Below, piece by piece: positions 13,335-64,000 of a DNA stretch of 64,000 nt; position 1 is the first letter of the stretch; every line of letters begins with the position of its first letter. The stretch comes from Scatophagus argus (lineage: Eukaryota; Chordata; Actinopteri; Scatophagidae). Position numbers and translations under genes: made by a program. The stretch spans positions 27,077,627 through 27,141,626 of the forward strand of contig NC_058495.1 in NCBI RefSeq assembly GCF_020382885.2. The letters run 5' to 3'. Below the pieces are notes generated by a model. The model was not told where the DNA came from. It saw only the letters and a list, made by a program, of their open reading frames with translations, and ran no database searches.

Positions 13335-20710
<7,376 letters not shown>

Positions 20711-23349: not shown

Positions 23350-24735
23350 CTATCTGCTCTGTTTCACTGTCACACAGACCTTCACTGGTAAGATCTTCAG
23401 ATTGCCCACACTGTAAATGAATGGAAACATCCTGTCAGTGAAAGTGTGTGTGAAGGTGTGTATGTGTGTGTTAGTATCAGGATCAGAGAACCACAGCTTT
23501 CCTCCATTCCAGTCCAGATTCACTCTGATCCTCTGGAGCTTCTTCTGCACTACGAGATCAGTGGGTGGAGCTGATGGTGACCGTGCTGAGTATTTATCTT
23601 TATTGAACCATATTATCCACAGTCCAGACTGTATGTGTCCTTTCCTCTGGACAGACTCTGTACACACACCCAGTGCCCAGTATGTTCTGTCTCCAACCTC
23701 AACATCCCAGCTGTGAGTCCCTGAGTCAAAGCCCTCAGAGCCCAGAACAAACAAGTACTTAAACCTCTCTGGATTGTCAGGAAGCTGCTGTCTCTCTCCT
23801 CGTCTCACGCTGCTCAGATCTTCAGACAGGATGAATTTTGGACCAGCAGTGTTTGGATCCAGAATCACAGGAGTGTAGGAGACCTTCTCCTTCATCTTGT
23901 TCCAGATGTTGAAGGTCAGGTTGCCCAGGTGTTTGGCCTCGTCTATCAGAGCTCCTGGGAGCAGCTGTGGCTCATCCAGCAGGGGGCGCTGCTGGACTCT
24001 TTCCACTGCAGCCTTGTAGTTGTTCAGGAATGAGACGTCTTCAGCTCTCAGCTCGTCCTCTGTGGCTCTGACTGTGTCTGAAAGAGCTGCTATCTGTCTG
24101 CTCAGAGCCTCCATCTTCTCCTTCATCATCTGACTCTTCTGCTCCTCTTCCTCCCTCAGTGCAGCCATCCTGGCCTCCTCTTCCTCTTTCAGAAACTGGT
24201 GGAGCTTCTTAAACTGATCCTGAATCCTCCTCTGTGTGTGTCGGGCCTGGACCTTAATGTGTTCTGCTGTTTGATCAAACTTCACTTTAACTTGTTCAAG
24301 AACCTTCAGCTTCTCCTTTAAGGGCTCCAGAGTTTCCTGAAGTTTCTTCTTGTGTTGTTGTGCAGCTTCATCGATGGGTCTGAATGTGTGGTTGGTGTGT
24401 CGTTCTGAGTCTCTGCAGACGAGACACACTGGCTGCTGATGGTCCAGACAGAAGAGTCTGAGTTTCTCAGAGTGCAGACTGCAGAAATACTCTGAAGCTC
24501 TCTGATGTCTCTCCAACAAGAAGGCCTCACACAGGTTCTTCAACACCAGGTTACAAGGTGGATGTTTCTTTGAAGACAACGTCTTACAAACTGGACACTC
24601 GCGTGTTGGTTTCTCTCTCCACCAGGTCTTCAGACAGTCTTTACAGAAGCTGTGGCTACATGACAGAACAACAGGATCTCTAAAGATCTCATGACAGACG
24701 GGACAGCAGAGATCCTCCTCTGATCTGGAAGCCAT
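23350..24735 (-). CDS. TRIM E3 ligase-like protein, RING / B-box / coiled coil / PRY-SPRY (copy C)
   Basis: Single coding exon of 461 codons, paralogue of the gene at 9460 but inverted. RING spans residues 11-50 (CPVC, CSHSFC, CPVC) and B-box 2 about 85-116; a coiled coil and a C-terminal PRY-SPRY ending CVTVKQSR follow. Residues 123-290 are identical to copy B while the parts on both sides differ at roughly one residue in eight to ten, including SPRY positions such as [13 protein letters not shown] against [14 protein letters not shown] 5' UTR intron is predicted at 24860-24753 (donor gtgagt, acceptor gttttcag). Poly(A)-type signal on the - strand at 23269-23264. It is divergent from RNF123. 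Function as a ubiquitin ligase is inferred from the domains. Confidence 0.92.
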
Positions 24736-37213: not shown

Positions 37214-40200
37214 CAGGGCGAAGCCTCGCGGTACATTTTCCTGAATAAGTTCAGGAAGTTTCTCCAAGAAAACGCCAGCAACAGAGGGGTAAGAGGAAGT
37301 GGAGCACTGCAGCAGTCTGCGATGAGTCGCTTTGGTTTCATCCAATCAGGCTTTAAACTATGAGATAACAACTTCCCATATATGAATATTTCACTTTTCT
37401 GTGATCGTAAACTGAACCTTTTTAGGTTTTGGCCTGTTGGTCAGAAAAAGACGAGACTTTTGAATGTGTCACCTTGATGTTCAGGTTGGCCAGGATTCTG
37501 CTTCTTTTCTCAACTGCTCACTAAAGTCTGATTTTATTTATTCTTTTGATGTTCAACTTCAGAAGAAAGGAAAAGGTCAGCTGATGGTTTTGAGAAATAA
37601 AACATGATGTGTCACAGTTTGCTTCAGTCTCCTCTGTGGCCTCAGTGGCTGCAGAGTCAAGTGCGACCCCTAGTGGTAAAACCTGGTATTCCAGCCTGGT
37701 GCTTAAGTAAATATTGAACTGGTTTGAATAAACTGACCTCATCATTTCCTCCAGCGTCTGACTGCGCAGACACGTCCTTCCTGCCAGCCTCTGACCTGTG
37801 TGTGTTTTGTGTTTGGGAGCAGCACCCCACAGCTCTGTGCCCTCCGGAGTACATGGTGTGTTTCCTGCACCGCCTCATCACGGCTGTCAGGGCCTGCTGG
37901 GACGAGTCCAGCAGGAAGAGTCCAGGCAGCGTCAGCAGCGAAGGTAACCACACGGCCTCAGAGGACTCAGGCCTCCATCACACCTGTAATTACCTGCTCC
38001 TCCACTTTCACAGACAACAAGAAGAACTCCGTCCGATCAGGAGTTCAGTCGTAGTATCAAGGAGGGTTCAGGCCAAAGGAACAAGCCGACCAAGAAGTAA
38101 AATCTTGTACAGCAGATTTAATGGGAACAACTTGAGTGTTGTATTGTGAGAGCGTCAGATGTTAACCATCATGATGTAGTGCAGCAAGCAGAAGAAAAAG
38201 TTTAAAGGCTTCTCTTAACAAAAAAAAGTACCATAAAGTAGAGAATATCAGCACCAACATCAGAGCAGTCAGGTGATATCACAAACTCACTCACACACAC
38301 ACACAGGATGCACCAGCACTGGTTTCCTGTTTTCAGAGCAGGTTTAGTGTGCTTCAGGAGGGAGACGCTGGATTTTCCTCCTTTACGACACCACTTTGTG
38401 TTCGCTCTGACTCTCTCCTGTCGTCTCTCTGCAGAGGCTTACGTCCCTCCTCAGCTCTTCTACAACGGGAAGGTGGACTACTTTGACCTGCAGAGACTGG
38501 GCGGGCTCCTGTCCCACCTGAAGAAAACACTCAAAGGTTGGTACGTGTGTTTTCAGACACGTTTGTGCAGGCAGGGAAGCTCACCTGTGCAGTGAAGTGA
38601 TCTTCACCTCTGGCCTGTTTATTAAATGAACTGGTGGTCGATCTGAGAGGAGTGGGGACTCCTGGACGAGAGGTCCGAGTCCACAGGTGGTTTGTTTGTG
38701 ACGTGAAAACATCCACACGATTCTCTGACAGCATGAAGTCGGGCTGCTTTTTGATGTGTTGCTGAGGAGGCTGATGAAAACAAACTTGAGAATTAAAGCT
38801 TTAACGAGGCTGTTTTCAGCTTCATGGACTCACGAGTTTGATGAGGAGGAGGAGAACCGAAGCCTGCAGAGATGCTGAGCTCCACCAGAGGGAGGAATTA
38901 CTTTGTGTCATCACAAACTCACATTCAGAAATCCACTGACTGTTAAAAGAACAGTTTGACAAACTGTCACATTTTCTTTTGTTTTTGATTGGATTATTTT
39001 TATCTGTTTTGTATTTTTTTAAACAATCTGAACAGAGTTTAGTTTTGCTCTTCCACCTTACTAAGTTGTTTGAATGAGTCATGTCCTGGAGGCTGCCAGG
39101 TGGACTCTGGTGTCCTGTTAACATTAAATGAAGACAAATCCAAGCAGCAGCGTCTCAGAGGAAGCGGCGGCCTTCGGACGGGGGCTCTGCTGTGTGTGCT
39201 CGTCGCCATCAGCAGGTGTGTCATGTGGATTGATGTTCCCTCAGCAGAAACGCTGTGCGAGCAATACGCTGCTCGTTCAGTGTCGGAGGAGACCGAGCGG
39301 CTCGGCCGGGATCAATTACCCGCCACAGCCATCCATTCGTTGTGATTTTTCCTGAGAGGTGGAGCTGCTCTGATGGAGGAGGCTGGTTGATCACATGTCC
39401 TCCAGAGAGAAACAGCTGAGGACATGAAACAAGTTTGTCCTTCATCAGCTTCCTTTAAAGTCTCAGTCCAGACCAAAAAGTCTCAACCGTGTTCCCCTCG
39501 GGATGGACTGGAACAGCGTTGGTGATCTCATGCACCATCAGGCCATCGTCTCATGTCCAGTACTTTGGTTTATGACCAGATACTGCAGAACTGATGACAC
39601 TGAGATGCTGGCAGCCACAGTGGTGCCGTGAGCTAAAGCTGCGACCAGCTTCAGAAGTCTGACCGGTTCATGTGAAGATAATCAGTTGTGTCTCAGTGAT
39701 AAGTGAAAGGACACACAGAGGCTGAAGCTGATGTGAACGCAACCTTCATGACTCATGAAGGATTCGTGTTGAAAACAGTCATTTCTGATGGATCGGGTCT
39801 CTTAAATGTTTTCTTTGTTAAAGCTCCTTCACAGAACAAAGCTGATGTGTGTGGACATGAATGTTGTGGGGAAACACTTGATGTTCTGTCCAGGAGCTGC
39901 TGACACAGTTTAGGACGTTCTGAAAGGAGAGTTTTGTGCACAAAATCCTGAGAGCCTCATTACTGACTTTGAGGACTCGGAGTCAGCAACAGATGAGTCC
40001 AGAGAGACTCGTACAGAGCGCGACGGGCCATGTGGACGCATCCACTCGTCCTGATGACAACTCGGGATCAAACATGTCGGGAGGTCACACTGTGTGTGCG
40101 TTGGTGTGTCTTAAAGCTCTTTCCTGTCCAGGCTGCATCTCCCTGCCTGCAGTCAGGGTTGATTAACACCCCATCGTTTAGCTCTGTAAGTCAGCAGGCC

Positions 40201-42346: not shown

Positions 42347-45300
42347 TGTGTCTGCAGTCACAAAGAGTTTCCACTGCAGTCCCAGGGCACCGAGAACCTT
42401 TTCAGCAATTTTATTTTGCGTTTTATTTTATGAACAGTCAGACAAAAAGAAAACCAACAGATACTGAGCGTAATGATCTGAGTAATCTGAAGATTTTCTG
42501 AGCAGAAGAGTTTTATTATGTGAGCAGAAAGCTTAACGTTGTATGTTTTATTCACGTGATAAACGGCCCTCTGGTCCGTCAGAGTGGCTGAGGTGAAGCC
42601 AGGAGCTGCACGGTCCAGTAAAAACTCAGCCAGCCGCCGTGTGATTCCTGATGGCTGACGTGATGTGCCGAGTGCGGCGCTGGGCGGCGCAAGATCAACT
42701 GTTCCTCTCTTCTCTCCTCCAGCCAATCAGAGCTCTTAAAGCAGTCATTCTCAAGGGAACAGAATTCATGAATCTGCTCAGCGTTTTGAAGTTCACAGAA
42801 GAAACATGAGAGGTGTTCCTCTCATGTTTCTTCCTGCAGATGTTGATGAGCTCTGAGTGACTCCAGCAGACACTGAGCTGGTTTGTGATGATTCAGGTTC
42901 AGATCCAGACCTCGGCAGCAGGACTGAAGGATCCTGCATGAGCTGGATTCTGCTGAGATGACCTGATTGTAAAAAGTGAAGCTTTATTAATCCCCATGGG
43001 GCTCTTTGACCTCCTCATCTGAACCTTCCTGACTGCAGCCGTGTGGATGAATAATGAGTTTGCATACATCAGAAAGCGTCGGCTCTGCTGCCTGAACGCC
43101 TGCTGGATGTTTGTGATTTTTGTCTGTTTATTGTCGGCACGACGACGACACCTTCACCTTCAGCTTTCGGCTGTCGTCTGTGATGGTCTCATCTTTCTTA
43201 CTTTTCTACTCATCTCCCAGTAATCCTGCCGTTAAGTCAGAGTTGTTCTCTCTGTTATTGAAACGTAATTTAAAAATAAGTCGGCAGAGCTGGTGGCTTC
43301 ACCCTTCATAGCTCCAAAACACCATGTGATGATGAGCCTCGCCGTCTGATTTGACGGAGGGGATTGGTCATCGTCTCAGCACGCTGTTGTTGTGATCTCT
43401 CTCATAGTGCGACGTACACATCAGTAAAATCCATTCCGCCTCGGGCTCAGCAAAGGATTTTGATGATCTTAGTCCAGTGAGAAGGTTTCATAATGTTTGA
43501 GTAGAGACGTTGTGAGTTTTAATAAAGAAAAGCCGACACAGCCGCTCACCGATGGCTTCTGCTGCCTCCTCACACGTGTCCTGGTTGTAGAACATTGACA
43601 GCTTCAGGTGATACGATATCAACCAAACCTTCACTGATGCAGCTTCTGCCCTGTGTTTAAAAACCAAACGACACACCTTGGTGCATATCGAGTCTGAATA
43701 TTCAGAAACGAGTCTCAGTGATGAACATGTTACCATGTAAAAAAGCGAATATAAAGACCATTCATATGTCCAAACGGTAAGATTCAGGTGTGAGGAGAGA
43801 AGTCTGACGTGTTTCTTCTTCCAGATGGTGGTGGTTTCAGATGACGTCCATGAATACGCTGTCGCCCTGAAGGACACCGAGGAGAAGATCGCACGATGCC
43901 CCGCCAGAGTGAGTTCAGTCGTACTTCCTGTGTGGTCACATTTCACTCGGTTTGGGGTGGCGGGGATTCGGTGTGTAGTTCATGCCTCCGTATGTGTGTA
44001 TCAGTTTGTGTTACATCAGCTAAACTTAAATACAACCGGCTTCAGTTTCAGCTTTAGCAGTTTGTTGATAGTCGTGTTGTTTGTTGGTGCTCAGCTGAAG
44101 ATAATTGGCCCGAGCTGCAGTCAACACACCTGTCAGCCTGCTCTAATATCTCATCTCATTAGCAAACTTTACAGGCACAACCACAGTATCTGCAGACGTA
44201 ACCCAAACCGAACTGTCACCACCTCAGTGTCATGGAACACATCGTGTCTCTGCTTGTAAACCATTTTATTGTAAACCATTTTATTCACCGCGGGAGTTCT
44301 CCTCGTTCATCCTGGTCAGTGTTTACATTCCACCTCAGGCATGTGTAACGGAGGCGTTACAACACCTAGCTGACCAGGTATCAGACATGGAGGCTAAACA
44401 TCCAGACTCCCTGCTCATCATTCTTGGGGATTTTAACAGAGCAAACCTCAGCCAAGAACTCCCAAAATACAGACAACAGATAAGGTGTCCCACCAGGGAT
44501 GCTAACACACTGGACCACTGTTATACTGTTCTAAAGGACTCCTACCGCTCTGTTTCCCGTGCTGCTTTGGGACTCTCTGACCACTGCATGGTCCATCTCA
44601 TCCCAACCTACAGGCAGAAGTTAAAATCAGCAAAGCCTGTAGTGAGGACAATTAAGAGATGGACAGCTGAGTCAAAGCTGGAGTTACAGGCCTGCTTTGA
44701 CTGCACTGACTGGAGTGTCTTCGAGGCTGCAGCCACAGACCTGGATGAACTGACCGACACTGTGACATCCTACATCAGTTTTTGTGAGGACTCATGTGTG
44801 CAGACCAAAACCTTCTGCACATACAACAACAACAAACCATGGTTCACCAATAAACTCAGGAAGCTGCGCCAGGCTAAGGAGGAGGCCCACAGAAGTGGGG
44901 ACAGGGCCCTGTACAAGCAGGCCAGGAACACACTGACGAGGGAGATCAGAGCTGCAAAGAGGTGCTACTCTGAGAAGCTGAAAAACAGGTTTTCAGCCAA
45001 CAACCCTACTTCAGTGTGGAAAGGCCTGAGAGACATCACCAACTACAGGAGCCCATCCCCCCACCCTGTGGGTAACAAAGGACTGGCAGAGGAGCTGAAC
45101 AGCTTCTACTGCCGCTTTTCACACCCTCCTCCCACCCCATCCACAACACTCAACCTCTGTGCCATACCTGACACCTCACCCTCCCCCCTCAACTCAGACC
45201 TCCTACCAGCACTGAAGGTCAATGTGGAGGAGGTGCATCGGCTCTTCCAGAGGCAGAAGACCAGGAAGGCTCCAGGACCTGACGGAGTGTCCCCCTCCTG

Positions 45301-46654
45301 CCTGAGAATCTGCGCTGACCAGCTGGCACCCATCTTCACCCTGATCTTCAACAGATCTCTGGAGCTGTGTGAAGTACCCTCCTGCTTCAAACGTTCCACC
45401 ATCATCCCAGTCCCCAAAAAACCCACCATCACGGGGTTGAATGACTACAGACCCGTCGCCCTGACGTCTGTGGTCATGAAATCCTTTGAGAGGCTGGTGC
45501 TGAACCACCTGAAGTTCATCACAGGCCCCCGGCTTGACCCCCTGCAGTTTGCCTACCGGGCAAACCGGTCGGTGGATGACGCAGTCAACATGGGACTGCA
45601 CTTCATCCTCCATCACCTCGACACCCCAGGGACATATGCCAGGATCCTGTTTGTGGACTTCAGCTCTGCATTCAACACCATCATCCCAGAAATCCTCCGC
45701 CAGAAGCTCTCACAGCTCACAGTGCCGACCTCCACCTCTCAGTGGATCTACAACTTCCTCACTGACAGGAGGCAGCAGGTGAGGCTGGGGAGCATCACCT
45801 CCAGCACCAGAACCATCAGTACTGGCGCCCCCCAGGGGTGTGTTCTTTCCCCGCTGCTCTTCTCCCTATACACTAACGACTGCTCCTCAGGGGACCCGTC
45901 CGTAAAACTACTTAAGTTTGCGGACGACACAACTGTAGTCGGCCTCATCAAGGATGGTGATGAGGCTGCCTACAGACGTGAAGTAGACCAGCTGGTCCTC
46001 TGGTGTGGTCAGAACAACCTGGAGCTTAACCCGCTCAAGACTGTGGAGATGACAGTGGACTTTAGGAAGAACCCACCCACCGTACCTCCTCTTACCATTC
46101 TCAACAACACAGTGTCTACTGTGGACTCCTTTAAGTTCCTGGGAACTACAATCGCCCGGGATCTCAAGTGGAAGTCCCACGTAGACCTAATCAGAAAAAA
46201 GGCCCAGCAGAGGTTGTATTTTCTGCGACAGCTGAAAAAGTTCAACCTGCCTCAGGAGCTGCTGACCATCTTCTACACCTCCATCGTCCAGTCTGTTCTC
46301 TGCACTTCCATCACTGTCTGGTTTGGATCGGCCACCAAACAGGACAGAAACAGACTGCAACGGACAATCAGGTCTGCAGAAAAAATCATCGGGGCCGACC
46401 TGCCCTCCATCCAGGACTTATACCAGTCCAGGGTCAAAAAACGGGCAGGAAGCATCACTGCAGACCCCTCACACCCTGCACACAAACTGTTTGATCTGCT
46501 TCCCTCTGGTAGGCGTTACAGAGCTCTGTATGCCAAGACCACCAGACACAAAAACAGTTTCTTCTCCCAGGCTGTCTCCCTGATCTCCCCATAAACCACC
46601 TGCCATTGTGTGAACCATCACACTGTTTGCACTACCTCATTCCACCGTTTGCAC

Positions 46655-48347: not shown

Positions 48348-49574
48348 ACACACTCACACACACTCACACAGATTAAGACAGCTGACGTAATAACAGAAGC
48401 AAACTGATGTTTGTTATCCTGCGAAGTGGAGCAGAAGCACTTCTGTAAAGTGTCACATGATCTTCAGCGTCACCACCTGTTCAATAAAAAATGTTTGCTG
48501 CATTTGTATTGGTTGTTGTATTGAAAACTCTCCATGGTCTTCCTCTCAGATATCAAAGACTCTCTGATGCAGGCCCTGGCCAGCTACGTCTGTTACCCAC
48601 AATCCCTCAGGGCCGTGGAGAGGATCCCCGAGGAGCAGTGAGTGTTCGGACTCTCCTCAGTTCTCTTGCTGAGCAGGATAGGGGGAATCTTTACTGTTTT
48701 TTCCTTTCAGACGTTTCTTCTCTCTTCTGAAAACGTGTGTGCAAAGCAAATGGAAAACAGTCACAGAGAGATTCAACACGCACTGCACCAGATTTGCACC
48801 ATGGCGTCCCTCAGGGCTCCATGCTCGGCCCCTTTGGAGATTTTAGATTTAAAGATTTAGATTTTGATGAATCTAAGATAAACACATTACGTCAGTGTCT
48901 CACTCCTGTTTTGTGTTATTTGAGTACAGCTGAAGGGGATCTATTGATCCACAGAAAAATAATTTTTTAAAAACACAAATAACAAATTGTCTCTTGTTTT
49001 TTATCTGTGAATGTTTTCTTGTTGTCTGAACATATCTGGACATTTGAAGACGTTACTTTGTGCTCAGGGAAATAAGAGAACAAGCAGATGATTTCAATTC
49101 AGTTCAATTCAGTTTTATTTAAAGTGCCAATTCATAACACAGTTAGAGAGAAAAAGGAGATGATGGGGGGACAGGAGACAGGGAGGATAGAGAGAACAGT
49201 GCAGAGCAGGAACAAGAGCAGCAGGATCTGGGCAGGGCCATGGAGAGGGTTCTGGATCCAGCAGCAGTATCAGTGCAATAGGCAGATAAAGGGATGATAA
49301 AGTCTAATGGATTACTGAAAGCCCTGAAGTTAGAGTTTGACATTTTAAGAGCTTTTTTTTACCCCGTCGCTCCTCCTCAGATTTCTCTTCTAACATTTCA
49401 ACGAGATCAGTTTCCCCTCAAATTGTATTCTTTTTCGTGGTTTGTGATGTGATGTGCGTTTGTGTCACTCCAGACGTGTTGCCATGATGAAAAACCTGCT
49501 GGCTCCGTATGAACAGAGACCCTGGGCTCAGACCAACTGGATACTGGTCAGACTGTGGAGGGTGAGAGAGCGTG

Positions 49575-49614
<40 letters not shown>

Positions 49615-52600
49615 TTAACATGGCGTGACGGCTTCCATGCTTCCATCCACAATGAAAATTTCTCATCTGGCTCATCAACCACAGAAGTTTCCCACTTTCT
49701 GTGTTGCACAGCACACTGCACGTGCTCAGTACACTTTACTTTGTGACGATGTCACATACATAGCAAACAACTTTTCAAGTGTTGGTAAACTTTTTGGAAT
49801 AGAAGACTTTGTGGTTAAACAAACAGTAGAAGCTGAGCAGTTGGAGGCTTCCTGTCTGTGCTAAAAACCTTCTGATGTTAGCATTTAGCTCAGCCAAAGT
49901 ATAATTACAGGTCATATAAATTACCCAGCAGTATGTAAGACTCATTACTGTTAGTAGTTTTGCTGAAGGATGTGAATACTTGTTGCAGTACTACTTGCGT
50001 GTACCTGCGTGTGAGCTCTGTGTGTTGTTGTGTTTCAGGGTTGTGGCTTTGGCTACAGATACACTCGCCTTCCTCACCTCCTGAAGACCAAACCTGAGGA
50101 CGCCAACCTCCCCAGTCTGCAGAGTAGGTGGTCTCCCTCTGTTTTCGCTTCATCTGTCTGTGGGCTGCATGCAGGCAGCGGGAGGCCGGGCAGTCGGTGT
50201 GGCTGCCAGCAGTCCGGGGAGTCTCCAGACTTTTCGGTCCCTGAGATCATTTCCAGCCCTAAAACAGAATTAAGATTTACTTTTGCTTCACTCACTTTCT
50301 CCTGCTGTTTGTCTGCTTCCATCTCTTTTTTTCTCTTTTTGCACATCCCCATCTATCAGTTTTGTTCTTTTCCTGAATGTGTCAGTTCCTGGTTCAGGTT
50401 CGACTCCCTGCTTTCTTTCATGGATTTCCATAAATAAATTGAGGCCACGACCGCCTGTCGGTCTGCACACCAGGTTTATTTTTACTGCATCTCTGTTTGA
50501 TTTATGGCTTTAATTATCTGTGTGTGTGTGTGTGTGTGAGAGAGACGTATGAAATGATGTGTGGAGGAAATAGAAGTGAATCAGTGAAATTAGGAATGAC
50601 TTTTATGTGCGCACACACAGACCATAATGTCATTTCTTTCTTTATTTTTTGAAGAATGAAGTGAAATCACAGCAGTAACAAACCACATGTCAGTTTTCTG
50701 TAGTGTCTACATTCGTTCATCTGTGGTATTGTGGCCAGGTTAGCTGGTTCCTCTTGCTTCCAGTCTTTGACTCCTCCTTTCATGTTTATGCTAATGTAGC
50801 GCAGCTTCATCTCCCAGTGACGCCTCCTGCGGTCTTTAGCCGCTGAATCAGTTTCCACCAGTTTAATTCTCACACGACAGAAATCCTTATTGGTCCCCAA
50901 CATAACGACACGTTTCACTTGTTGTGCGGGTGCAGTATGCAAAATGACGACGATGCTAACAGGCTGGTGTCTCTGTTTAGCATATTAGCATGCTAAGGCT
51001 GATGCGATTGGTTCATTTGACAAAGGCCAGAGAGCCACTTCAGCATGTGCTTGGACAACATGAAATTTGTTTAATGTTGTTAGCAGACATATTTCTTCTT
51101 CCCTCCTTCCTTGTGTTTCTGTGCTAAGCTAGGCTAACCAGCCCCTAACCTGAGCCGTTGGCTAAGATATATTGACTTCATCTGACTGTGGAAGTTAGCT
51201 GATGGTATTTCCTTTAATGGCGCCGTGTCATTGCCCTCTTTGTTTTTCTGCTCCTCTGTTAATCGTGATTTTCTGCTTCCTGCATGATAATTGACTTTGG
51301 TCTGTGTGCCTTCTCATTTGCATGTCTTTCAGGGGATCTGTCCATTGCTAGTTTCCAAAGTAAGTTCTTTTCCATCACCCTCAGTTTTGCTCTTCTGCCT
51401 TCATTTACTTCCAGCTGTTTCACAGTCTTAAAGCTCCCAGGACTGGTTGGCTAGCTGCTGGATGCAGACTGTCCTCAGGTCCGGTGATCCCAGTTAGTGC
51501 ATGTTAGGATGTGACACTTCCAGTCTGTTTGTCCCTCTGGATGAATCCTAAACATTCATTACCTGACAGGTTGTGTCAGCTGCAGTCAGTGTTAATTGAA
51601 AAAGTGACTCTGCTGCAGGATGTTTGTCGTCTGCTTTTCTTGGATCTGATTGAGTTAGATAAGATGAGATAAGCTTTTATTGACCCCACAGGATGAATTT
51701 GTTATGCAGCAACACAAAGACAGACACCCTCACAGTACTGATGACCAGAGCTGTACTTGAGCTAACACTTCAGTACTGTCTCCAGGTACTGATGCAGTAC
51801 TGTGATTAGTGGCAGTGAAGTACATGTAAGTGTAATCTACTGCAACAAAAACAAGTATATTATGATGACATTAGGGTTAACATAAAGTAAAATATGCAGC
51901 AAACAACCACCTGAACCTTACAAACAATGGTCTCTGATCCTCCTCCACCCACAGCAGGGTGGAGGACTCAGCTAAACAGACAGTTTGTTGCAAACAGCTT
52001 CTTTATGTTAAACCATAAGCCTCCGTGAAAGCCTGCTGCTCTCACACTGATGCTGCAGAGTGAACGATCTGCTGCTCAAATACGTCGTAACACTTCAGTC
52101 ACGCGACTAATGTACCGCACCTGTACACACAAAACTGATAAAACTTCTGTCTAAGCAGTACTTTGAACTTCTGCAGGACTTGGAGAAGAAAGTGTCAGTC
52201 ATAGCAGAAAATCAAGTTGCTTGTTTTTATTCTGCAACAGTAAAGAAATAAATGAAAGGAATAATCTGTAGTGCAACTAAAGTACAGTATGTCCCCCTGA
52301 GATGTAGTGAAGCACAAGTATACACAGGGTCACTGGTGTCAGTATTGGTCCTCCTCTGGGTGATGAAGCGTCTTTCAGGCCCCATGTGGACAGATGCGAT
52401 CCTGTGGGGTGCAGCAGAGTCGGAGGACACAGAGGACAGACTGGGATTATTAGACTTAATGAACACTTGACCCCAGTGTTCCCATCACGTCTCCCACAGG
52501 AGAGATTTTCCTCATCTTCTCCACAGCGCACCACCCTCCTCCTCCTCCTCCTCCTCCTGCTCCTCCCCTCCCCCATGTGTGTTCACTTCCTCCTCCTCCT

Positions 52601-55600
52601 GTTAGTCTTTTCCTTGACTTTCCCTTGTTTTAACCTCATTTTCTGCCTCCTTTTTTTCTTGTGTTGAAGGTAGTTGCATGTGTTTAAGACGTGACATCCA
52701 CTGTGAATCCTCCTCCTTCATCTTCCTCCTCTGGTCTGTCAGGTTGTGTATTTAAAGGAATAGCTTTGTTTACAGTGTAACTACACCCACAAGTCTTTTT
52801 AATATTGTTGATTAGTTTCTTGGTTTCTGACTCGATGTGTGCCGGTCGAGGAAATTCAAAGTGATCGATGATGATGTTGAAGTGTCTTTGCGGTCCAGAG
52901 TGAAGGAGACGACGGCTGAACTCAGATTTCTGAAGGTGTTGATAGAATCGAGATGTGCTGAAATGTGTTTCCTTCCGTCATGGCTGTGAGCCCTCTATTC
53001 TTCTTCTGTGGTGGTAAACGCAACATGAGCAGCTGGAGAACATATTCACACTCTGAGTTTTCTAACTTAAACAATAAGTTTTGATTTATGTTTTATGAGA
53101 AAAGATTTCAAATGTACTTTTTGTGTATTATAAGAAAACCTCTCTGCTGGGGATTAATTTCCTCCTTCAGCCTTGTTTCGTTAGCTTCCTGGTTGAAAAG
53201 CAGCTCACAGCTGAGGCTGCAGCTCCACCGCAGCTCTGAGGAAGGTCAACATGCTGTTAAAGTCTTTGTCTTTGCCTCGTGTGATTGGTTTAGAGCCGTG
53301 TCCATCGCTGCTGCTGCAGAGACACATGGCGGAGCTGCTGAGTATGGACAAAGACATGGCCGCCTCCTTCCTCAACAGCGTCCTGAACCAGCTCAACTGG
53401 GCCTTCTCCGAGTTCATCGGCATGATCCAAGAGGTGAGCCGCCTGGTTCCTCTTCATGTGTTGTGCCTTATTAAAGTGAGGAAAAACACTCCAGTGACAC
53501 TTACAGCTCAGAGAAAAAACCCTGAAAGTCCTCCAGCTTAACCAGGCAGAATATTTTGACAAAGCAGTCGACCGCCCAAGAACCAGCAGCGACAGTTAGC
53601 TTCATGCCGTCACGCGGCTTGTGAGACGAACCTCAACATGACGGGTCGCTTTTTATAAGTCTGCAAAGTAATGCTGGCCCCTCCCGAGCCGAACGGCGTT
53701 TCTGCTCAGTCAGGGAGTCATTAAGTGTCTGAAGTGAAACCAGCAGCGGGTTGGGAAGCACATTTAAAACCAGAGCAGCACTTTGCTGGGTGGTGTCATT
53801 TAAAGACGCCTTCAGCGGCTCCTTCATCCGTCACTGTTAATATCAGAGCAGGACACTTTTAAAAATAGCCTAAAGTGTTTTGTTTGTTTCCCTATAACGA
53901 GATTATGTGAGATAATTCCTCAGTAATGTGCTGTGAATCATCGCACCGAGCACCACTTTGTATTCTGCTCCATCGCCTTCCTGCAGGAGCAGCAGATGTT
54001 CTCAGCACAGCTGCACACTCACACTGCGAGAGGTGCAGCTTTGTTTTTTGTCCGTTCGTCCACCTCTGAAACGTCTCCTCCAGAGGTCGAGTGAGAGCGG
54101 ATTCACCCCCTCAGTTCTGATAGCTCCTAACATCCAGCAGCAATGAGTCAGTGTGGGCGACTCTTCTCCTTCTGCCTGCCTCTGATCTCAGCAGCTGCTG
54201 GACGGACTGTGATGAATTGCGGTTCAGAGATGTGATTCAAAAGACGAAGCCCCTAAACGTCCTTACTGTCACCTGCAGACAGGTGTGGAGTTTTGTGCTC
54301 AGCCGTCGACAGACACACCTCGTGCTGTGTGTCTGCGCTCGCTGCTCACACCAGCTGACGGCTGGTGCAGTTTTAAGTGATGAAGGTTAGTTAGTCAGCA
54401 CGTTTGATTGGATGAATTAAGTGACAGTCATTCAAAGTTCAAAGTGATTCTTAGAGTAATATTTTAGGATTTACAGGAAACTGAGTGGATGTCGTATCGT
54501 GCAGGTGTTTGTGTTTCGGCGCAGGTTTAGAGCTGTGAAGCTTTGTAATGTCGGTGTGTGTGGAGCGTCGGCCTCAGTCGAAGCTGCGTGTCAAAGTGGA
54601 ATGAGTGTGTTCAGAGCATTGTTTCGTTGTTTCCCCCCTTTGTCCTTGTCTCTCTCAGATCCAGCAGGCTGCGGAGCGTCCAGAGAGAAACTTTGTGGAC
54701 ACTCGTCAGCTGAAGGTAACCACACACCTGTCACACACCTGTGAGCCCATAAAGCACCTGCGACCTCAGGTGTGTCATCTGTCTGCGGTTCTGTTCAGAG
54801 AAACGCTGCAGAGGCGTGTGTTTCCTGTGAATGAGAAAAACTAAATGTTCTCTCTTTTCTATTGCAGTGAATTGAATTTCTCTGACTTTCAGACAAATGA
54901 AACTATGTGATGTGTTCTCAGGCTGTGAACGGGTCTGTTTGTTGTATTGTTTTGTGTGGACTCACCGGACATGTATACTGATGATGTGAACCTGGTTCCA
55001 GGTGTGCGCGACCTGCTTCGACCTGTCGGTCAGCCTGCTGCGAGTGCTGGAGATGACGGTCACTCTGGTCCCAGAGATCTTCCTGGACTGGTCCCGTCCC
55101 TCTGCAGAGCTGCTCCTCAGACGACTCGCTCAGGTGATTCAAACCTGCCACAGGGCCAAAAGCATCTCGGCTCCGGGCTGAGGGAGCTGTTAGCCACACA
55201 GTCCCGGCACAAGTGGGCCAACCCACGACTTGGATTAGCCCCTGAAACCCACCAAACTCAGGGCTAAAAGGTGCCTGGTTGTTCCAGTGGACATTTAACT
55301 CAGAGCTAATAGAAGCACAGTGTGAATCATGTCGCTTCAGGCTTCAGTTGACCCTGGGTTAACAGTAGGCCCAGGACTAACCTTAGATCCAGGGCTAACC
55401 TTAGACCAGTGCTAACCTCAGACCCAGAGCTAACCTTAGCCAGTGCTAACCTCAGACCCAGGGCTAACCTAACCACAACTGTGGATAAACAAAAAAATAT
55501 TACTCTTGCAAACCTAACCTCAGACCCAGGGCTAACCTCAGACCCAGGGCTAACCTTAGACCCAGGGCTAACCTCAGACCCAGGGTTAACCTGAGCGCAG

Positions 55601-56454: not shown

Positions 56455-56545
56455 TCACAGGGCTGGAGAGTGTAGACCACTACCCCATCCTTGTAGCTGT
56501 TACCGGCATCCTGGTTCGGATCCTTGTGGACGGACACCGACAGGG
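26808..56545 (+). CDS. rnf123: RNF123 (KPC1) E3 ubiquitin ligase, partial (RING exons beyond window)
   Basis: Catalytic subunit of the cytoplasmic KPC ubiquitin ligase, which with UBAC1 targets p27Kip1 in G1 and also acts on NF-kB p105. The protein starts [17 protein letters not shown] and can be followed over 35 exons for 1163 codons plus 2 nt without a break. The SPRY domain is in exons 4-9 ([18 protein letters not shown] to FNFGSRPLR, about residues 90-255). The long conserved middle includes [20 protein letters not shown] and [13 protein letters not shown], and the last exon seen is [19 protein letters not shown]. Human RNF123 has 1314 residues with the RING near its C-terminus, so about 150 residues including the RING are missing here; I scanned 56546-64000 and found no matching exon. 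Two introns are AT-AC, and one 27-nt cassette exon is predicted. Confidence 0.96.
28090..28260 (+). mobile_element. LINE/SINE 3' tail with CTTAT repeats
   Basis: Ends AATTTCCCCACTGCAGGATC, then AATAAAG and repeated CTTAT units, the tail style of teleost LINEs. No coding part is visible. Confidence 0.6.
28265..28535 (+). repeat. 270-bp direct duplicate, copy 1 (RNF123 intron 2)
   Basis: Starts near TGAAATGTCATGATTGACAG and ends near ATTAGTCATCTTAA. It matches 30134-30401 with only a few differences (for example CTCCTCCTC against CCCCCTCCTC). Confidence 0.9.
28743..28770. repeat. (GT)n in RNF123 intron 2
   Basis: About 14 GT units. Confidence 0.9.
29715..29856. mobile_element. 142-bp hAT-like MITE with 8-bp target-site duplication
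   Basis: The ends AGTGGCGGGCCGT and ACGGCCCGCCACT are perfect 13-bp inverted repeats of hAT style (CAGTGGCG...). GATTTTGT occurs immediately on both sides (29707-29714 and 29857-29864), the 8-bp duplication expected of hAT transposition. It lies in RNF123 intron 4. Confidence 0.88.
30134..30401 (+). repeat. 270-bp direct duplicate, copy 2 (RNF123 intron 5)
   Basis: Same orientation and near-identical to 28265-28535. A short part (GGAAGTGGAGACGCGTC, CGCCATCTTTG) also resembles 5338-5368, so it may be a dispersed element. Confidence 0.9.
30773..30793. repeat. (CA)n at the donor of RNF123 intron 6
   Basis: Begins 4 nt after the exon 6 donor; the same 89-bp intron has a GT-rich stretch at 30806-30823 before its acceptor. 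Confidence 0.9.
31725..31763. repeat. (GT)n at the acceptor of RNF123 intron 8
   Basis: Ends 10 nt before the exon 9 acceptor. Confidence 0.9.
31900..32307 (+). other. rnf123: U12-type AT-AC intron 9 of RNF123
   Basis: The donor ATATCCTT at 31900-31907 is the U12 AT-AC consensus. The branch motif TCCTTAAC at 32286-32293 lies about 15 nt before an AC acceptor (gactcac, ending 32307). Splicing here gives CTC AG + G TAT CCT, that is FGSRPLR then YPVDGY, matching human RPLRYPVAGY. No GT-AG choice gives this join. Confidence 0.92.
33115..33386 (+). mobile_element. LINE 3'-end fragment in RNF123 intron 11
   Basis: Contains a decayed LINE ORF end (TTCGTCCCAGTGGCAGTCAG, AGAGTCTACAACAGC) and 3' UTR ending ACATTTCCCTTCAGGGATCA, then AATAAAG and CTTAT units. 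Confidence 0.65.
34026..34069. repeat. (CA)n at the donor of RNF123 intron 12
   Basis: Begins 5 nt after the exon 12 donor, with CG and GT interruptions. Confidence 0.9.
34775..34874 (+). other. rnf123: U12-type AT-AC intron 14 of RNF123
   Basis: The donor is again ATATCCTT (34775-34782). The branch-like CTCCTGAAC at 34856-34864 is about 11 nt before the AC acceptor (gctcac, ending 34874). The 100-bp intron joins GTC TT + G TTT GAC to give [17 protein letters not shown], as in the human protein. Confidence 0.9.
37182..37211. repeat. (GT)n at the acceptor of RNF123 intron 17
   Basis: Runs directly into the tttcag acceptor of exon 18, replacing a normal pyrimidine tract. Confidence 0.9.
42264..42343. 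repeat. (CT)n(CA)n compound microsatellite
   Basis: About 12 CT units then over 20 CA units, 40 nt after the exon 23 donor. Confidence 0.95.
44387..46594 (+). CDS. LINE endonuclease (C-terminal part) / reverse transcriptase ORF
   Basis: Open frame of 735 codons from the first ATG with no stop; the same frame is open upstream to about 44255 ([10 protein letters not shown]...), so the true protein was longer. It would nick target DNA and copy LINE RNA, but the missing APE N-terminal catalytic residues make retrotransposition unlikely. Reverse transcriptase motifs run from about residue 290 ([13 protein letters not shown]) to 560, with FADD near 507. The undamaged frame implies a recent insertion. 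It is not a host gene. Confidence 0.9.
46660..46685. repeat. (TA)n in the LINE 3' UTR
   Basis: About 12 TA units. Confidence 0.9.
47850..47945. repeat. GCTAACAGGA / GCTAATAGGA tandem repeat
   Basis: Imperfect 16-bp units of the form AGGAACTGCTAACAGG in RNF123 intron 26. Confidence 0.75.
48269..48333. repeat. Poly(C) run of about 65 bases
   Basis: An uninterrupted C run starts four bases into RNF123 intron 27 (donor gtga) and is followed by (CA)n to 48369. The exact length may be an assembly estimate. Confidence 0.9.
49098..49345. repeat. Teleost dispersed repeat (TTCAATTCAGTTTTATTT type)
   Basis: Starts with the widespread TTCAATTCAGTTTTATTTAA motif followed by a purine-rich GACAGGAGACAGGGAGGA body. 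Lies in RNF123 intron 28. Confidence 0.6.
49574..49610. repeat. (CA)n near the donor of RNF123 intron 29
   Basis: Begins 12 nt after the exon 29 donor. Confidence 0.9.
51333..51359 (+). other. rnf123: Candidate 27-nt cassette microexon of RNF123
   Basis: The bases between a gtctttcag acceptor (ending 51332) and a gtaagt donor (51360) are 27 nt, phase 1 at both ends, exactly fitting the flanking exons 30 and 31. Inclusion would turn LPSLQ-KPCPS into [19 protein letters not shown] with no stop. A TGC lies about 13 nt upstream of the acceptor, a feature of SRRM4-dependent neural microexons. Human RNF123 as I remember it goes directly from SLQ to KPCPS. Expression is not shown. Confidence 0.7.
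52538..52560. repeat. (CTC)n tract
   Basis: About seven CTC units within a wider pyrimidine-rich stretch (52530-52610) in RNF123 intron 30. Confidence 0.85.
55360..55595. repeat. 18-19-bp minisatellite in RNF123 intron 33
   Basis: About ten imperfect units of GGCTAACCTCAGACCCAG with some AC-rich and A-rich insertions. Confidence 0.9.
56182..56213. repeat. (AC)n at the donor of RNF123 intron 34
   Basis: Starts two bases into the intron (gtacac...). Confidence 0.95.
56413..56452. repeat. (GT)n at the acceptor of RNF123 intron 34
   Basis: About 20 units ending 8 nt before the acceptor of exon 35. Confidence 0.95.
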
Positions 56546-59500
56546 GTAAGATGTTGCTCTGGATTTTTACCCACGATGCAGTTTAACAGAATATCATCAT
56601 CATTTGACTGGGCTTTAACTGATGCTCGTCCAGTGATGCTCTGAATGACTGTGAAGGTCTGTGGATCAGCGTGAAATGGCGGCGTTTGGGACCAGGACCC
56701 CTTCAGGCCACCGGACTTTAAAGTGTGTCCGCTGCGGTGCTGTGTGAAGGATTAATTCAATCCTGATGTGGCTGAAGGCGGCTTGTGTCTGGTTTAACTG
56801 GATCTTTATGAATCAGTCGTACACAGCAGCAGATGTGGAGACGATAAAAACATTCAGAGGCTGCATGTGGAATTGATTAAAATACCAAGAAATACATGAA
56901 GAAATAAGATTAAGTCGGTTGTTTTTCATTTTGGCATCAATGTCCTCCTCAAAGAAGAAACTGCAGCTCTTTGTGAAAATGTCTTTAATTCCTCTGATGT
57001 GCAGTGAGAGCGACAGTTTGACTCATGAAAACATGGAGGACATGTCAGCTCTGCAGAGTGAAGCCAACACCTGCGGTCGCCCCCTGGTGGCTGGCTGCAG
57101 TACAGTACAGTTAACAGGTGGGACATGAGCCCCAACATGGTTTCTGTCTTCTGTTCTTATGCTGACGTGGTCCATGTTTACAGAGAGAGCCTGGACTTAC
57201 GTTGAAGGACTCAGCTCACATGCACATTTACACTGTTGTCCACGTAATGAGGCCACAGTGAGGCTTCTCACACGGCGCTGATGGGCTGCAGTGTGGAGGA
57301 AATCCAATGAGCACATGATAAAAGCTTTGCCGTTCTTCACTCATCACGTGACTGATTTGTTAATTACACAACTAAATCTGATCAGTTTGACCTTAAATGT
57401 GCCTGAACATCAGCTGTTTGTCCTGCGGTCTTTGAACGCTCACTCATTTTTAACCTGTTGAAGCAGTTCAGGGAGCGTTTGTGTTGTTGTTTGTTTGTTT
57501 TTGCTTTGTGCTGAACTGAGCACTGAACTGCTCCTGATGATCATTTTGATGCTGGCAGCAGTACGATGTGTCTGTCAGGTTATCAGCCTTTCACTGGTTT
57601 CCTCCGTCAGCTGCTCTGCTCCACCATGTGACCCCGCCTGTTTAATATTCTGGTGTGGTCTGCTGCCGGCGCAGCAGCAAACTGACTGATTGTCTCTGGC
57701 TGGTTAATATGTGTGACTCTGCAGTTTGTTCTGTCCTTACGTTTCATTCGGCCTTATCATCAGCGAGTCACAGCTTAACGAGTGTGAGGCATGTGAATGT
57801 GATGGTCTGCCCCGCTGCTCGTTTGCCAGCAGTCCTGCAGGGACTTCACCGGAAACATTTCTTATGGGCTATGTGAGACTTGAAACACCCGCTACTCACG
57901 CTGAGCACTCAGACGTTTAACCACAGCATTATAAACTCTGATTTACTGTTAAGATGCTTCCATCAGTGGATGTTTTTATGAGCCTGGTGTATCAATGACG
58001 CCGCGTCTCTCAGCTGAATCTGCAGCTCCACAGTGACTTTGTGTTCATCTGTTCAGACTAAAGCTCACTGCTGTGGTCCACTCTCAGCGCTCTCACAGAG
58101 AAAAGGCTGGAAACACACCATCCAGACACACTGCGACACCACAGCTGACACAAACGCGAGTCCTCGTGAACCCCGTGTTGATCTGTGCGTGATTTCAGGT
58201 TTGTCAGTGTTGTGATGACTGAGCCGCTCCTGAAGTTCATCTGATTAGTCCCTCGAGTTCACACGTGTGATGTTAAAGCTGTTAAAGCAGTTTCCTTCCT
58301 GTTGTGTCTCACCTCTTTCTGTCATCCCTCCTTCATCTGTCTTGTATGTCTTGTATTAGACAGCCAGTGGATTTCATGATGAGGGGTTCTCGTCTGAACG
58401 TCCCATCTGATCTCATTTATTTGAGTGTAGGTGGTTCCAAGCTGTCAGCAGCTTTGAGATTAGATTAGATTATTGTATACAATTTTGCAATTACACATTT
58501 ACGTTGTTTATAAAAAGGTGAAGCAGTTAGCTGACTTGAGACTTGCTGGGACTTGTTGGTCTTGACTCTGGATTTGATCTTGAACCTACACAATAATAAT
58601 AATAAATCAAGAGTGAACAGAGAGCTTCAATAAAAACTGTGCTCAGGTTTGTTTTTTTGTTTGGCTGCTGCTGATTTGTTCTAGTTGTTTACATTTCTGA
58701 AAAGCTCTTAGATCTGAATGCAGTGAAAGTACAGTATTCTGTCTGTGCTATACGCATATCAACCATGTACTGTATCCAGTACATAATGGTGTCCAGGAAA
58801 GACTTAGTGAAGGGGTTCTCCCTGCCGGAGGAGCCGTGCCTGTCTGCCTGGAAGCAGAATAAATGGTTTGAGATGGAGGATGTTTGGGGAGTGCTGAGTG
58901 TCGGGCAGCAGTACAACAGAGTACTGCAGTGATGGGATACCACAGGAAGGCTTAGTGCCCATTAATGGACTCCGTTTGACCAGTAACGTCATTGTTGAAA
59001 TGAATAAAGGCATTAGTGTCAGGCTGAACTGGCTGCTGTGCTGTGAGGCGAAGAGAAACGCTGGATATTCCCTGTTTGTTTAAACACAACAAAACCAATC
59101 AGTTCTTACTACAGACGGTGATCGGGACACACAGTGATCACTGCAGCAGGTGAGAGTAACTGCAGTGTAGCATGGAGATGAAGAGCCTCAAATGTCTCAT
59201 CTGTCGGGCCTCTGCTCTGCAGATAGAAATATTCATCTCCTGAATGATCAGACGGATCCACGTCACACACTGATATCAAGGCTGATTACTGAATTACTTT
59301 ACAGAAAGCGAATGGCCAACTATTTTAATAACTGATGACTGATTAGAAGGTCATTCTGTGCCCTGAAGTTCCAGCTTCTGTTAGTCTCACAGAGCAAACA
59401 CTTTGATCGTATCACATTTAAATGAGATTAAATCCTGACAAAATGTAAATATTGGTTTGAGTGGATAAGTAGGTTGAAGCAAAAGTTCAACATTTAGTGA

Positions 59501-62500
59501 AATATTCTTGTGTTTCTCTCTGCTAAACATCTGCAGTTATGAGACAGAAAAATTTTAAAAACAGTTTATTAGCTTTGACGTTTGCATGGAAACGTTGTCA
59601 GTATTACATTCAGTTTTTCATTAGATGTCTCATTGTGCATGAACGGGGCAAAGTTAGCGATTGGTTCATCATCTAGCGTCTGTTGAACAGCAGGCCACCG
59701 TCTGTGAAGCATCAACTTACTAACTGTTGGACTGCTGCACCAGTTACACACTGAACCTGCACCTAAAGCAGATTGAGGCTAAAGCTAACACACTGAGGCT
59801 TACCCAGCATTCAATTTATGCTCATAAGTCGTAACTCCGGACTTGTAGTGAGATCACAGCCATTAAAAACCACTTTGGATGCGTTCTATTTGCCACGACA
59901 CAAGACAGCTCGTTTGTAACGTTATTTAGCCATCGTTGCCGTAGCAAAATGAACCGGTTACAAGCAGCACCAGTTGATAAATTACATGGCATTTCACGTC
60001 TAACAAAACCATAGCTGTATGTCCATAGGCAGCAGTGAGACAGTGTTGTATTTACGACTTACTAAATTGGACACAAGAAAGACAAGAAGCACTAAAAACA
60101 TGCAAAACCACAGCCTTTATTTACAGTCGGTGCTCTGGGCAGCCATTTTGATTTGCGGACTCCATGTCCTCTGAGGACAACTGAGCTGTTGAGTTGGAGT
60201 TCTGGCTTCGGGTGGGCGTTTGATTTGTCACTTCCGCCTTTGTAAATGGCTGAAGCTAAAGCTAACAGGCTCAGGCTAAAGCTGGTATATAGTTAACAGC
60301 AGCTGAAATGTAAAATGCAACCAAGCAGGACAAAGTGCTAACTTTAGCCTAAACTCTGATCATCTATGATGAAATACTACCAGCACTGGTTGTGCATGGA
60401 GCTTTCCTCCTCTAGTTAGCTAAAGATTATGCTCTTTGACCTGTTAATTATTGCTATAGATAGTAAGCTATGCAGCTACATGTGCTGACTATGGAAGTTT
60501 ATGTTGGTGCCGATAAACACACTGTTAAATCCATTCACTGGGCTGTGCTGTCTTCCACCTGTTCAGAGCACAAGATAAAACATGGCAGCATCTCATTCAG
60601 TTCTCAATGTTCTTTGTTTAACAGCTGAGAAGTTTAAATAAATTTGACTCCGCAAAGGCAGACTGAGTTCTTGACATTTAGCTGTTGTAGCATTAATGTG
60701 TTTTGGTAGTTAACTCAGTTCTGTCTCCAGCCACAGAGCTGCACACTGTGAGGCCGTTTGTCAAACTGGACGTCTCTCTGTCCCTCTGTGCCAATGAACG
60801 GCACTCTTCAGGACTTTACAGCCCACGATGTGCTTTTCTCATATGTAAATTTGTTCTGTACCACTTTGGGTTTTTTTCTTCAAAGTGAAATATCACTAAA
60901 GGTGACCTGATTCCCAAACTGCGATCTGCTACAAACTTGTCTGTGTGCTTAAACTTAATACTTGAAATCCTTGTGAAATCCTCTTCTTCCCTTTCTTCCT
61001 GCGAGTTGCATGTTCAGATTGATACCACTCTGATGTTACTTTGTTAGTTAGTTAGCTTAGCATAAAGGCTAGAAACAGTGGGAGACAGTTAGCTTGACTC
61101 TCTTAAAACAACAGACTGACAAAGTGTGTTAGCCTGTGGGCTTTAGAGGTGCAGGTTGGTGGATTTTAGAGCACAGCCCTGCTAGCTGTTGCCCTCTGTT
61201 TCCAGTCTGTGTGCTAAGCTAAGCTAACCAGTTGTTAGCTGAGGTGTGCAGACATGAGGGTGGATTCGATCTGAAAATGTGGCTGTTGGAGAGACAGAGA
61301 AGAGGAGGGTTTCAGTAAATGTTGATCTGTAAATACCAAGCATTGTTTCTTGCTGCAAACAAAGTCCTCTGCTAGAACTTTTTGAATAAATTTCATTTTC
61401 TTCAACTCACAAGACAGTTGGCAGAGCCATCAGAGCATATGAAGATACTGACCTGATGAGCTTTTGATTCAGAGATGACAAAGTGCCAGAACAAGCAGAT
61501 GAAGACTTTGTGTCTCCTTCACTTTGCTTCACAGTGAAGGGAAACCTCAGTTTGTGGGCTTCAAGTGATAAAAGCATTATTCTTTATGGGCTTGACCTCA
61601 GATTGTGTCGGGCTCACAGAGAACACGGCGAACAGTCATTAGGTCTAATCTGTCCACCCGAGATCGAATTCCATCAAGGACTCTTCTTTAGTCTCTCCTG
61701 CACCTTATTGCTCCCATTAGGGCACCCTTACATAATGGTCTTTATTGACCAGTGGGTGCAGAATACATCAGCATCGTGTTGATGGGATCGACATGCTGCT
61801 TGTTCAAGTCGTGCTCCTTAAATACCTTTTCATCGGTCCTGTTGGCTTTACAAGGGACGCAGACGTTTTGATTTTATACTTAGATTCACACTCGCTCACA
61901 TGTAATGATGTTTGATGATGTTTAATGATGTTTATTCAGCTTTTTTACGGTGTTTGTACATTTTGGTGTTACAGAGAAAAGCACAAGCTTGACCTCAGCC
62001 TGCGATGATGCTTTGTTATGTTCTGTTGTTATGCTTCTGTGACAGTAAATCACATGCTAACGTGATATGGAATTAAGAAGTGGCTCACCCTTTATTAGCA
62101 CAGTTAGCTTTGCTTTCCCAGTGTGCACTGCTGGGCCCATTCATCACTTCATTCATTCATCCGCTCATCCACAGCACCCAGTGTGTCGTCCGTCACACCT
62201 CGTCTCGCCCTCCTTACAGCCAGCGTTTGGTTCGTCTGCTCTGGACTGCTGTAGAGACATGATGGACGTCGCCATTAAATAGAAATAAAAGGCTCATTAC
62301 AGGGTAACAAAAACACAACAAGTTCTTAGTTTTAGATGATGTTGCACTCATGAAAACATCAGGATGAATACTTTCTGGATTATTTATGGAAAATATGTAT
62401 GAAAAAGAGAAGTAGTGAATGTAAACTGTAACATGAGCTCTAGAAGTGCCTCCTACATGGACATGAAGTAGAGTAATTATAATTAGTTTAATAACTGATG

Positions 62501-64000
62501 AGTACTTCTGCTGCTGACTGGGCAGCAGCGTTTAAACGACTGACCTGCTAATAGTGCCCTTCCCACGTCAGAATTTCACTTTTAAACGTTTTCGCTCAGA
62601 AATCTGTCCAGAAGATCCTGTTGTAGTTTTTCATGTTGAAAATCTGGTCATCAAATGCTACTAAAGCAATTTAAATAAGAAACATGTAAACAGAACTGAG
62701 TGCAGATTGGACTGGTGATGCAGTTTGATGATATAAATCAGCGACTCTGTTGAAGCACTTTGACATCCAGACTGCTGAGGTCGGACAGGAGTCTGTGTCG
62801 TCGTTAATTTCATGGTTAAAGAGTGAATAACTTCCACATTCACACACACGACCTTCGTTTGTCCAGAGTGATCAACACAAACACCCTCAGTGTGAACGTG
62901 TTGAGCTCGTAGTGACGCCGCCAGGCAACTGAACGCTTTTAAGACCCGCTTCAAACATAAGACAACAATTTCACTGACAAACATTTCAATTACATGTGTT
63001 GCGTTTTTAATTATTATAACCAACAAAAATGTCTCATGTTGAAGCCAGACTGGCTGCAGTGAGATGCGAGGAATTCATTTTTAATGGCTCCGTATAGGAA
63101 CTTCATGCAGAGCAGCACGCAGACTCGCTGTGGTCCTGGACTTGAGTTGTTGCTGTTTTTCTTCATTGTTTCTCCGTGTGCCGCCGAGCTGCTGGCTGAT
63201 TAATTGAATGCGAGAGCACTCGTCCTCTGAACAGCCCCAAGCTGTGTTCTGAACTCATTTCATGTCCAAATGCAGCTCACATGCAGCCTGTTTTACTAAT
63301 AGGTTTTGGCCACTCGTGGGTGTTGAAGTGTTTGCATGTAATAAATCAGAGAGGCGATGCTCCAGTTATGTGGAGCTCCGCTAATCCTGCACATCCAGCT
63401 GGATCCACGGGGGAAGCGTCTGTAGGGGGTGTGAGGGTCAGCCACGAAGTCCTGAAAAAAGCTGGCCTCACTACAGATTCTAATCTCTTTTTTTGTTGGA
63501 GCGCAACAGAAAAGTTTAAAGGTCACCTAAACACTGGATTTTAATTAAAGTGAAATCATTTAGCGTCATGAAAAGGGTGAAACGAGGCGACAAACTGAAG
63601 AGATGTGGTGCAGACCAAAAGCAACAAAGACTTGGTCTGCTCTCAAAGTGCAGACCAGCTCAGTATGACAACGCAATAGACAGAAAGAGTCTTTACTGAA
63701 GCTGAAGGCCCAAAGCAGATCAGGAGGACACCTTGCACCCGCGTCAGTGCTCGGGACAGACTGTGGACTGCAGACACAGTGGATCAGAGGACAGAAGTGA
63801 TGAGCTCCTGAGGGATGTTAAACGTTAGCATGCGACAGGTCTGGTCTGTCTCGTTCTCATCGGCTCCACTTCAGCCGTCCAGCGCGTCACATTTATGTTC
63901 CTGATCTGACAGCTGAACTCAGAGTTTACGTGACCTCATCGGTGCTACTCTGATGCTCCTCAGTGGACACAGGACGTCAGGAGGGATCGCACGCCGCCGC
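56546..64000 (+). other. rnf123: RNF123 intron 35 (open at window edge)
   Basis: At least 7.4 kb without a supportable exon. I looked for codons of the conserved LLADPCFQLRSICYLLG segment and of the RING and did not find them. One dispersed repeat (61012-61262) was seen. Short GCTAA-rich stretches occur at 60250-60300. Confidence 0.65.
61012..61262. repeat. GTTAGCTTAGC-type teleost dispersed repeat
   Basis: Contains GATTGATACCACTCTGATGT, then TTAGCTTAGCATAAAGGCTA and GCTAAGCTAAGCTAACC, hallmarks of a very common teleost repeat that I cannot name. A shorter relative is near 51118-51165. Confidence 0.6.

Follow-up and report, generated by a model that had tools for sequence, protein, structure and literature searches.

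Gene content and host gene of the candidate exon

The window analysed here is a 64,000-nt stretch of the 570-Mb Scatophagus argus genome (48 contigs), and it contains coding exons of rnf123 (KPC1), the host gene of a 27-nt block that is a candidate cassette microexon. The joined rnf123 exons match the Pfam domain TPR_RNF123 (E 4.5e-59 with the 27-nt insert included; E 8.6e-60 for a shorter piece of the gene without it), and they include a SPRY stretch with matches to chains of the ryanodine receptor, DDX1, and ASH2. KPC1, a subunit of an E3 ligase, is reported to bind p105 by way of 968-WILVRLW-974 (excerpt of PMC10100387), and the same heptapeptide is encoded by rnf123 in the window. A second copy of the gene was not seen in the genome, as a 74-aa query returned two matches, which are the gene's own two exons. 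A search of 56545-64000 (+) with a few short motifs did not recognise the RING, no Rfam match was found in 50000-53500, and no solved structure was found for the region encoded by the exon at 53294..53433. The main features of the locus are listed below; here and throughout, splice sites were scored with simple position matrices built from general vertebrate values, not with MaxEnt.

49538..49558 (+): WILVRLW, through which KPC1/RNF123 is reported to bind p105
50039..50123 (+): upstream constitutive rnf123 coding exon (GCGFGYRY...LPSLQ plus one base), followed by a weak gtaggt donor (4.4)
51331..51332 (+): AG of the candidate acceptor (tttcag), matrix score 9.6
51333..51359 (+): candidate 27-nt microexon, phase 1-1, adding RDLSIASFQ
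51360..51365 (+): candidate donor gtaagt, matrix score 8.8
53294..53433 (+): downstream constitutive exon (KPCPS...), with a weak gtttag acceptor (3.4) and a strong donor (10.2)

Two further features of rnf123 were observed. An intron of the gene carries the open frame of a non-LTR retrotransposon (44339-46508, +), which is reverse-transcriptase-like by eye. The gene finder also called a 13-nt exon (KKGK) at 37563-37575 (+), which is not a multiple of three and is probably false.

Anatomy and reading frame

The intron lying between 50123 and 53294 is 3,170 nt long, and the candidate divides it into introns of 1.2 and 1.9 kb. Skipping would give LPSLQ-KPCPS and inclusion would place RDLSIASFQ between these two pentapeptides. 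The block lies within the 3-27 nt size range, is a multiple of three, has symmetric phases equal to those of its flanks, and contains no stop, and the joined frame is free of stops in both the skipped and the included form. The initial annotation had placed exactly 27 nt, at 51333..51359, between a good acceptor and a consensus gtaagt donor, and its coordinates proved exact; its statements that the phases match the flanks and that RDLSIASFQ is added between LPSLQ and KPCPS also held, as both joins keep the frame.

The gene finder was used only for listing exon borders. Its call of 51333-51359 was not counted as evidence because low intron penalties chain many false exons, and with a high intron penalty (20) it skipped both the 27-nt block and the upstream exon. 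Folded as RNA, 51260-51420 is predicted to be less stable than its shuffled versions (z +1.41). The search for conserved relatives in IMG/VR gave no match to an exact 25-mer, and the 74-aa query yielded 6 pattern-matching stretches in IMG/VR and 126 in GTDB, none of which was confirmed.

Acceptor region and UGCAUG elements

The sequence before the candidate acceptor combines a long AG-free stretch, a branch-point-like motif, and UGCAUG elements of the Rbfox type, with a further UGCAUG in the following intron.

51199..51330 (+): AG-free stretch leading up to the acceptor, with 134 nt from AG to AG and a pyrimidine fraction of 0.69 across -134..-1
51281..51286 (+): UGCAUG of the Rbfox type, 52 nt upstream of the exon
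51291..51295 (+): branch-point-like TTGAC, with the A at -39
51319..51324 (+): UGCAUG within the polypyrimidine tract, containing the UGC at -14
51498..51503 (+): third UGCAUG, which begins 139 nt inside the downstream intron

The frequencies given here and below refer to a background consisting of the window and twenty 10-kb segments of the same genome, read on both strands (528,000 strand-counted bases), in which the window and the candidate are themselves included. An AG distance of at least 134 nt occurs at 16 of 35,837 AGs and at 4 of the 909 acceptors scoring at least 8 (candidate included), and only one of 924 strong acceptors, the candidate, has two UGCAUG in -60..-1; both the AG-distance and the UGCAUG tests were selected after the region had been viewed. 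Three UGCAUG within 260 nt were present in 4 of 51,708 overlapping windows, some of which may lie outside the candidate locus. The downstream UGCAUG is weak evidence when taken alone because such an element follows 83 of the 924 strong acceptors at no more than 200 nt. The upstream UGC claimed in the initial annotation is indeed there, at -14 and -26, and is likewise weak alone, as 285 of the 924 strong acceptors also carry a UGC at a comparable position. The AG-free stretch and the UGCAUG cluster, on the other hand, lay outside the criteria by which the candidate had originally been selected, and each is rare.

Apart from the A at -39, matches to yUnAy place an A at -131, -116, -71, and -17. 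The tract is pyrimidine-rich (0.69), but over 140 nt its UC repeat is limited to a single TCTC and a pair of CTCT.

Control microexons and ordinary exons in the same genome

Control microexons were sought with query sequences for SRC and ITSN1. The loci read were the src-type genes L025, L026/L027 (two loci of one gene), and L029 and the itsn-type genes L030 and L031, each out to only some 1.5 kb on from its matched exon; L024, L028, and L032-L035 were left out. Three of these five control genes (L025, L026/L027, and L031) have a microexon; the portions of src-type L029 and itsn-type L030 that were read showed none. The mammalian SRC N1 microexon encodes RKVDVR. One src-type gene (L026/L027) has an 18-nt exon encoding RKVNCR between NNT and EGDWW with an AG distance of 161 nt, and a second (L025) has an 18-nt in-frame block encoding KKYSFR with an AG distance of 129 nt, a less sure copy given its divergence from RKVDVR. 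These divergent N1-type microexons thus both follow very long AG-free stretches. In the itsn gene, the VKGEW exon, GTGAAGGGGGAATGG, has an AG distance of 108 nt and a donor, gtaagttct, like that of the candidate.

By comparison, 31 ordinary rnf123 exons have AG distances of 5-82 nt; these exons were picked by eye from the gene-finder list by likeness to the known RNF123 sequence, and their borders may be partly off, the two shortest distances being 5 and 15 nt. The acceptor scores of the three controls are 8.8, 7.6, and 1.1, against 9.6 for the candidate. A loose in-frame filter that all three controls pass, set after the controls had been seen, is passed at 5 places in the 528,000 bases, and among these the candidate has the best summed splice sites.

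Comparison with known classes of microexons

The properties of known classes given here are taken from excerpts of the cited papers. In flies, eMIC-dependent exons are marked by long AG exclusion zones, strong branch points, UCUC-rich tracts, and a UGC close to the 3' site; of the fly features, only the weak 5' site and the branch point lying downstream are not shared by mammalian eMIC targets (PMC8797185). The fly exons are further described as having 3' sites that are very weak and an upstream donor that is strong, in a passage that separates flies from mammals at least partly (PMC8797185); the candidate has neither a weak 3' site (9.6) nor a strong upstream donor (4.4). In zebrafish, a UGC combined with a UC repeat is the canonical microexon layout, found in 42 of 95 conserved microexons, with a similar layout in 44 more (PMC12626420). 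The candidate resembles the Srrm3/4 (eMIC) neural microexons, such as SRC N1 and the VKGEW exon of ITSN1, in its shortness, frame, UGC near the 3' site, and long AG-free stretch; it differs in having a weak UC repeat and an acceptor stronger than those of the three controls, and its neural use and Srrm dependence are putative.

A second class to be compared is that of micro-exons regulated by Rbfox. Alternative micro-exons show an enrichment of UGCAUG on their downstream side, and those regulated by Rbfox lean towards weaker splice sites, a population tendency and not a strict rule (PMC4317164). The candidate is like this class in carrying a UGCAUG in the downstream intron, its flanking introns being 1.2 and 1.9 kb long, and unlike it in having two further UGCAUG upstream and splice sites that are not weak (9.6 and 8.8). 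The candidate has most in common with the Srrm3/4 (eMIC) neural class, and Rbfox is a likely second input whose sign is not readable from the sequence. Neural use is plausible because the acceptor region resembles those of Srrm3/4 (eMIC) targets. The reading that we prefer, with a probability of roughly 0.6, is that the block is a neural, Srrm3/4-type, alternatively used cassette microexon of rnf123 with Rbfox input.

UGCAUG located upstream of an exon, including within the polypyrimidine tract, is classically linked to repression. The candidate has two such elements, one of them inside the tract, and they could equally well mean repression by Rbfox; this would fit a real microexon under other regulation, whether repressed by Rbfox where that protein is abundant (neurons, muscle) and included in other tissues, regulated in muscle, or included almost constantly in S. 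argus. The fairly high strength of its splice sites points in the same direction, as does the use of some zebrafish neural microexons also in endocrine, muscle, and immune tissue (excerpt of PMC12626424). Nevertheless, the long AG-free stretch is typical of eMIC-dependent exons (excerpt of PMC8797185) and of the three neural-type controls, and one UGCAUG lies downstream, the position enriched around alternative micro-exons (excerpt of PMC4317164), which makes regulation of another kind, or constant use, rather unlikely.

Splice-site strength and the possibility of chance

A long pyrimidine-rich intron may contain strong-looking splice sites that are never used, and the candidate could be a pseudo-exon of this kind. 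Pairs in which both sites are at least as strong as those of the candidate number 3 at 3-51 nt and 2 at 3-27 nt in the 528 kb, and only the candidate itself is an in-frame pair of 3-27 nt. By summed score the candidate is less exceptional, as 7 in-frame pairs of 3-27 nt, the candidate among them, are equal or better, and looser pairs (3-51 nt, with scores from 8 upwards for the acceptor and from 7 upwards for the donor) are frequent, with 56 in the 528 kb. About 1.7 pairs at the summed score of the candidate are expected per 64-kb window on both strands; therefore, site strength alone is not decisive. As the initial annotation had scanned the whole 64-kb window, about one such find is expected by site strength, and the case made there was not yet strong. 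Within the rnf123 intron, however, only about 0.04 pairs at this summed score are expected, and the AG-free stretch and the UGCAUG cluster, neither of which had entered the original selection, argue against chance. We regard it as unlikely that the 27-nt block is a chance product.

That the block belongs to an alternative exon of greater length or with other boundaries, or is an exonised repeat, is very improbable: acceptor-like sites do occur at 51385 and 51415, but there is no further AG for more than 130 nt upstream, the next downstream donor scoring above 6 is only at 51826, the 301-bp stretch around the microexon has a single match in the 570-Mb genome, itself (very common words skipped), and the one direct-repeat pair in the intron (78%) touches only 51259-51281.

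Overall, the block is probably a real microexon, whether of the neural Srrm3/4 type or under other regulation or constant use. The initial claim of an in-frame cassette microexon is now well supported by the AG-free stretch, the UGCAUG cluster, and the control microexons of the same genome. If the microexon is real, this also suggests that the length of the AG-free stretch and the clustering of UGCAUG can together single out a regulated microexon in a lone raw genome, with control microexons of that genome as a check.

Microexons of this kind are known, and no report of an rnf123 microexon or cassette exon was found in the paper texts searched. The gene is not named in the main text of PMC12626424, PMC12626420, or PMC7821500, although the exon may already be listed in the supplementary tables of those papers.

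Position of the insert in KPC1 and possible consequences

In the encoded protein, 29 residues separate WILVRLW from the insert and 23 separate the insert from the start of the TPR-domain match. The insert thus falls between the substrate motif and the domain, and therefore the linker between them would be lengthened on inclusion. The leucine and glutamine at the end of the upstream exon join the first residues of the insert to form LQRDLS, and the skipped form has no such motif there. The pattern of basophilic kinases is [L/I/V/M]-x-R-x-x-[S/T], and LQRDLS fits it; being a short motif, this putative kinase site is only a lead. Human RNF123 presumably runs LPSLQ-KPCPS with no insert, and an insert-containing form of RNF123 was not found in the literature searched. 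The suggestion in the initial annotation that the insert may be a modification or partner site could be made specific enough for testing because the insert lies near the reported p105-binding motif and would create the LQRDLS motif.

Under the preferred reading of a neural Srrm3/4-type microexon, the spliceosome would skip the exon by default because an exon of 27 nt is hard to define. Inclusion would depend on Srrm3/4 acting at the acceptor region, with its UGC and its long AG-free stretch, most likely in neurons, and Rbfox would modulate it through the UGCAUG elements. RDLSIASFQ would then enter the linker between the p105-binding motif WILVRLW and the TPR-like domain, creating the basophilic-kinase-like LQRDLS, and the binding of substrates or partners might be tuned by this site or by the length of the linker. 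A neuron-restricted KPC1 switch, in which kinase control of LQRDLS alters the processing of p105 to p50 or the turnover of other KPC1 substrates, is a highly speculative extension and would seem quite improbable. If the microexon is real, a broadly used E3 ligase joins the genes altered by the microexon program, and a direct test of the two isoforms would be possible because the microexon lies near a mapped substrate-binding motif.

Other features of the window

Several other coding regions were observed in the window. A coding exon of a bHLH protein, hes/her-like by eye, is located at 6518-6930 (+), and a gene for an aldehyde dehydrogenase, ALDH4A1-like by eye, extends over about 15390-20508 (+). 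In the gene-finder translations, two nearly identical coiled-coil, TRIM-like coding stretches lie in opposite orientation at about 9760-10815 (+) and 23809-24435 (-), and this pair may have come from a finTRIM-like gene by inverted duplication.
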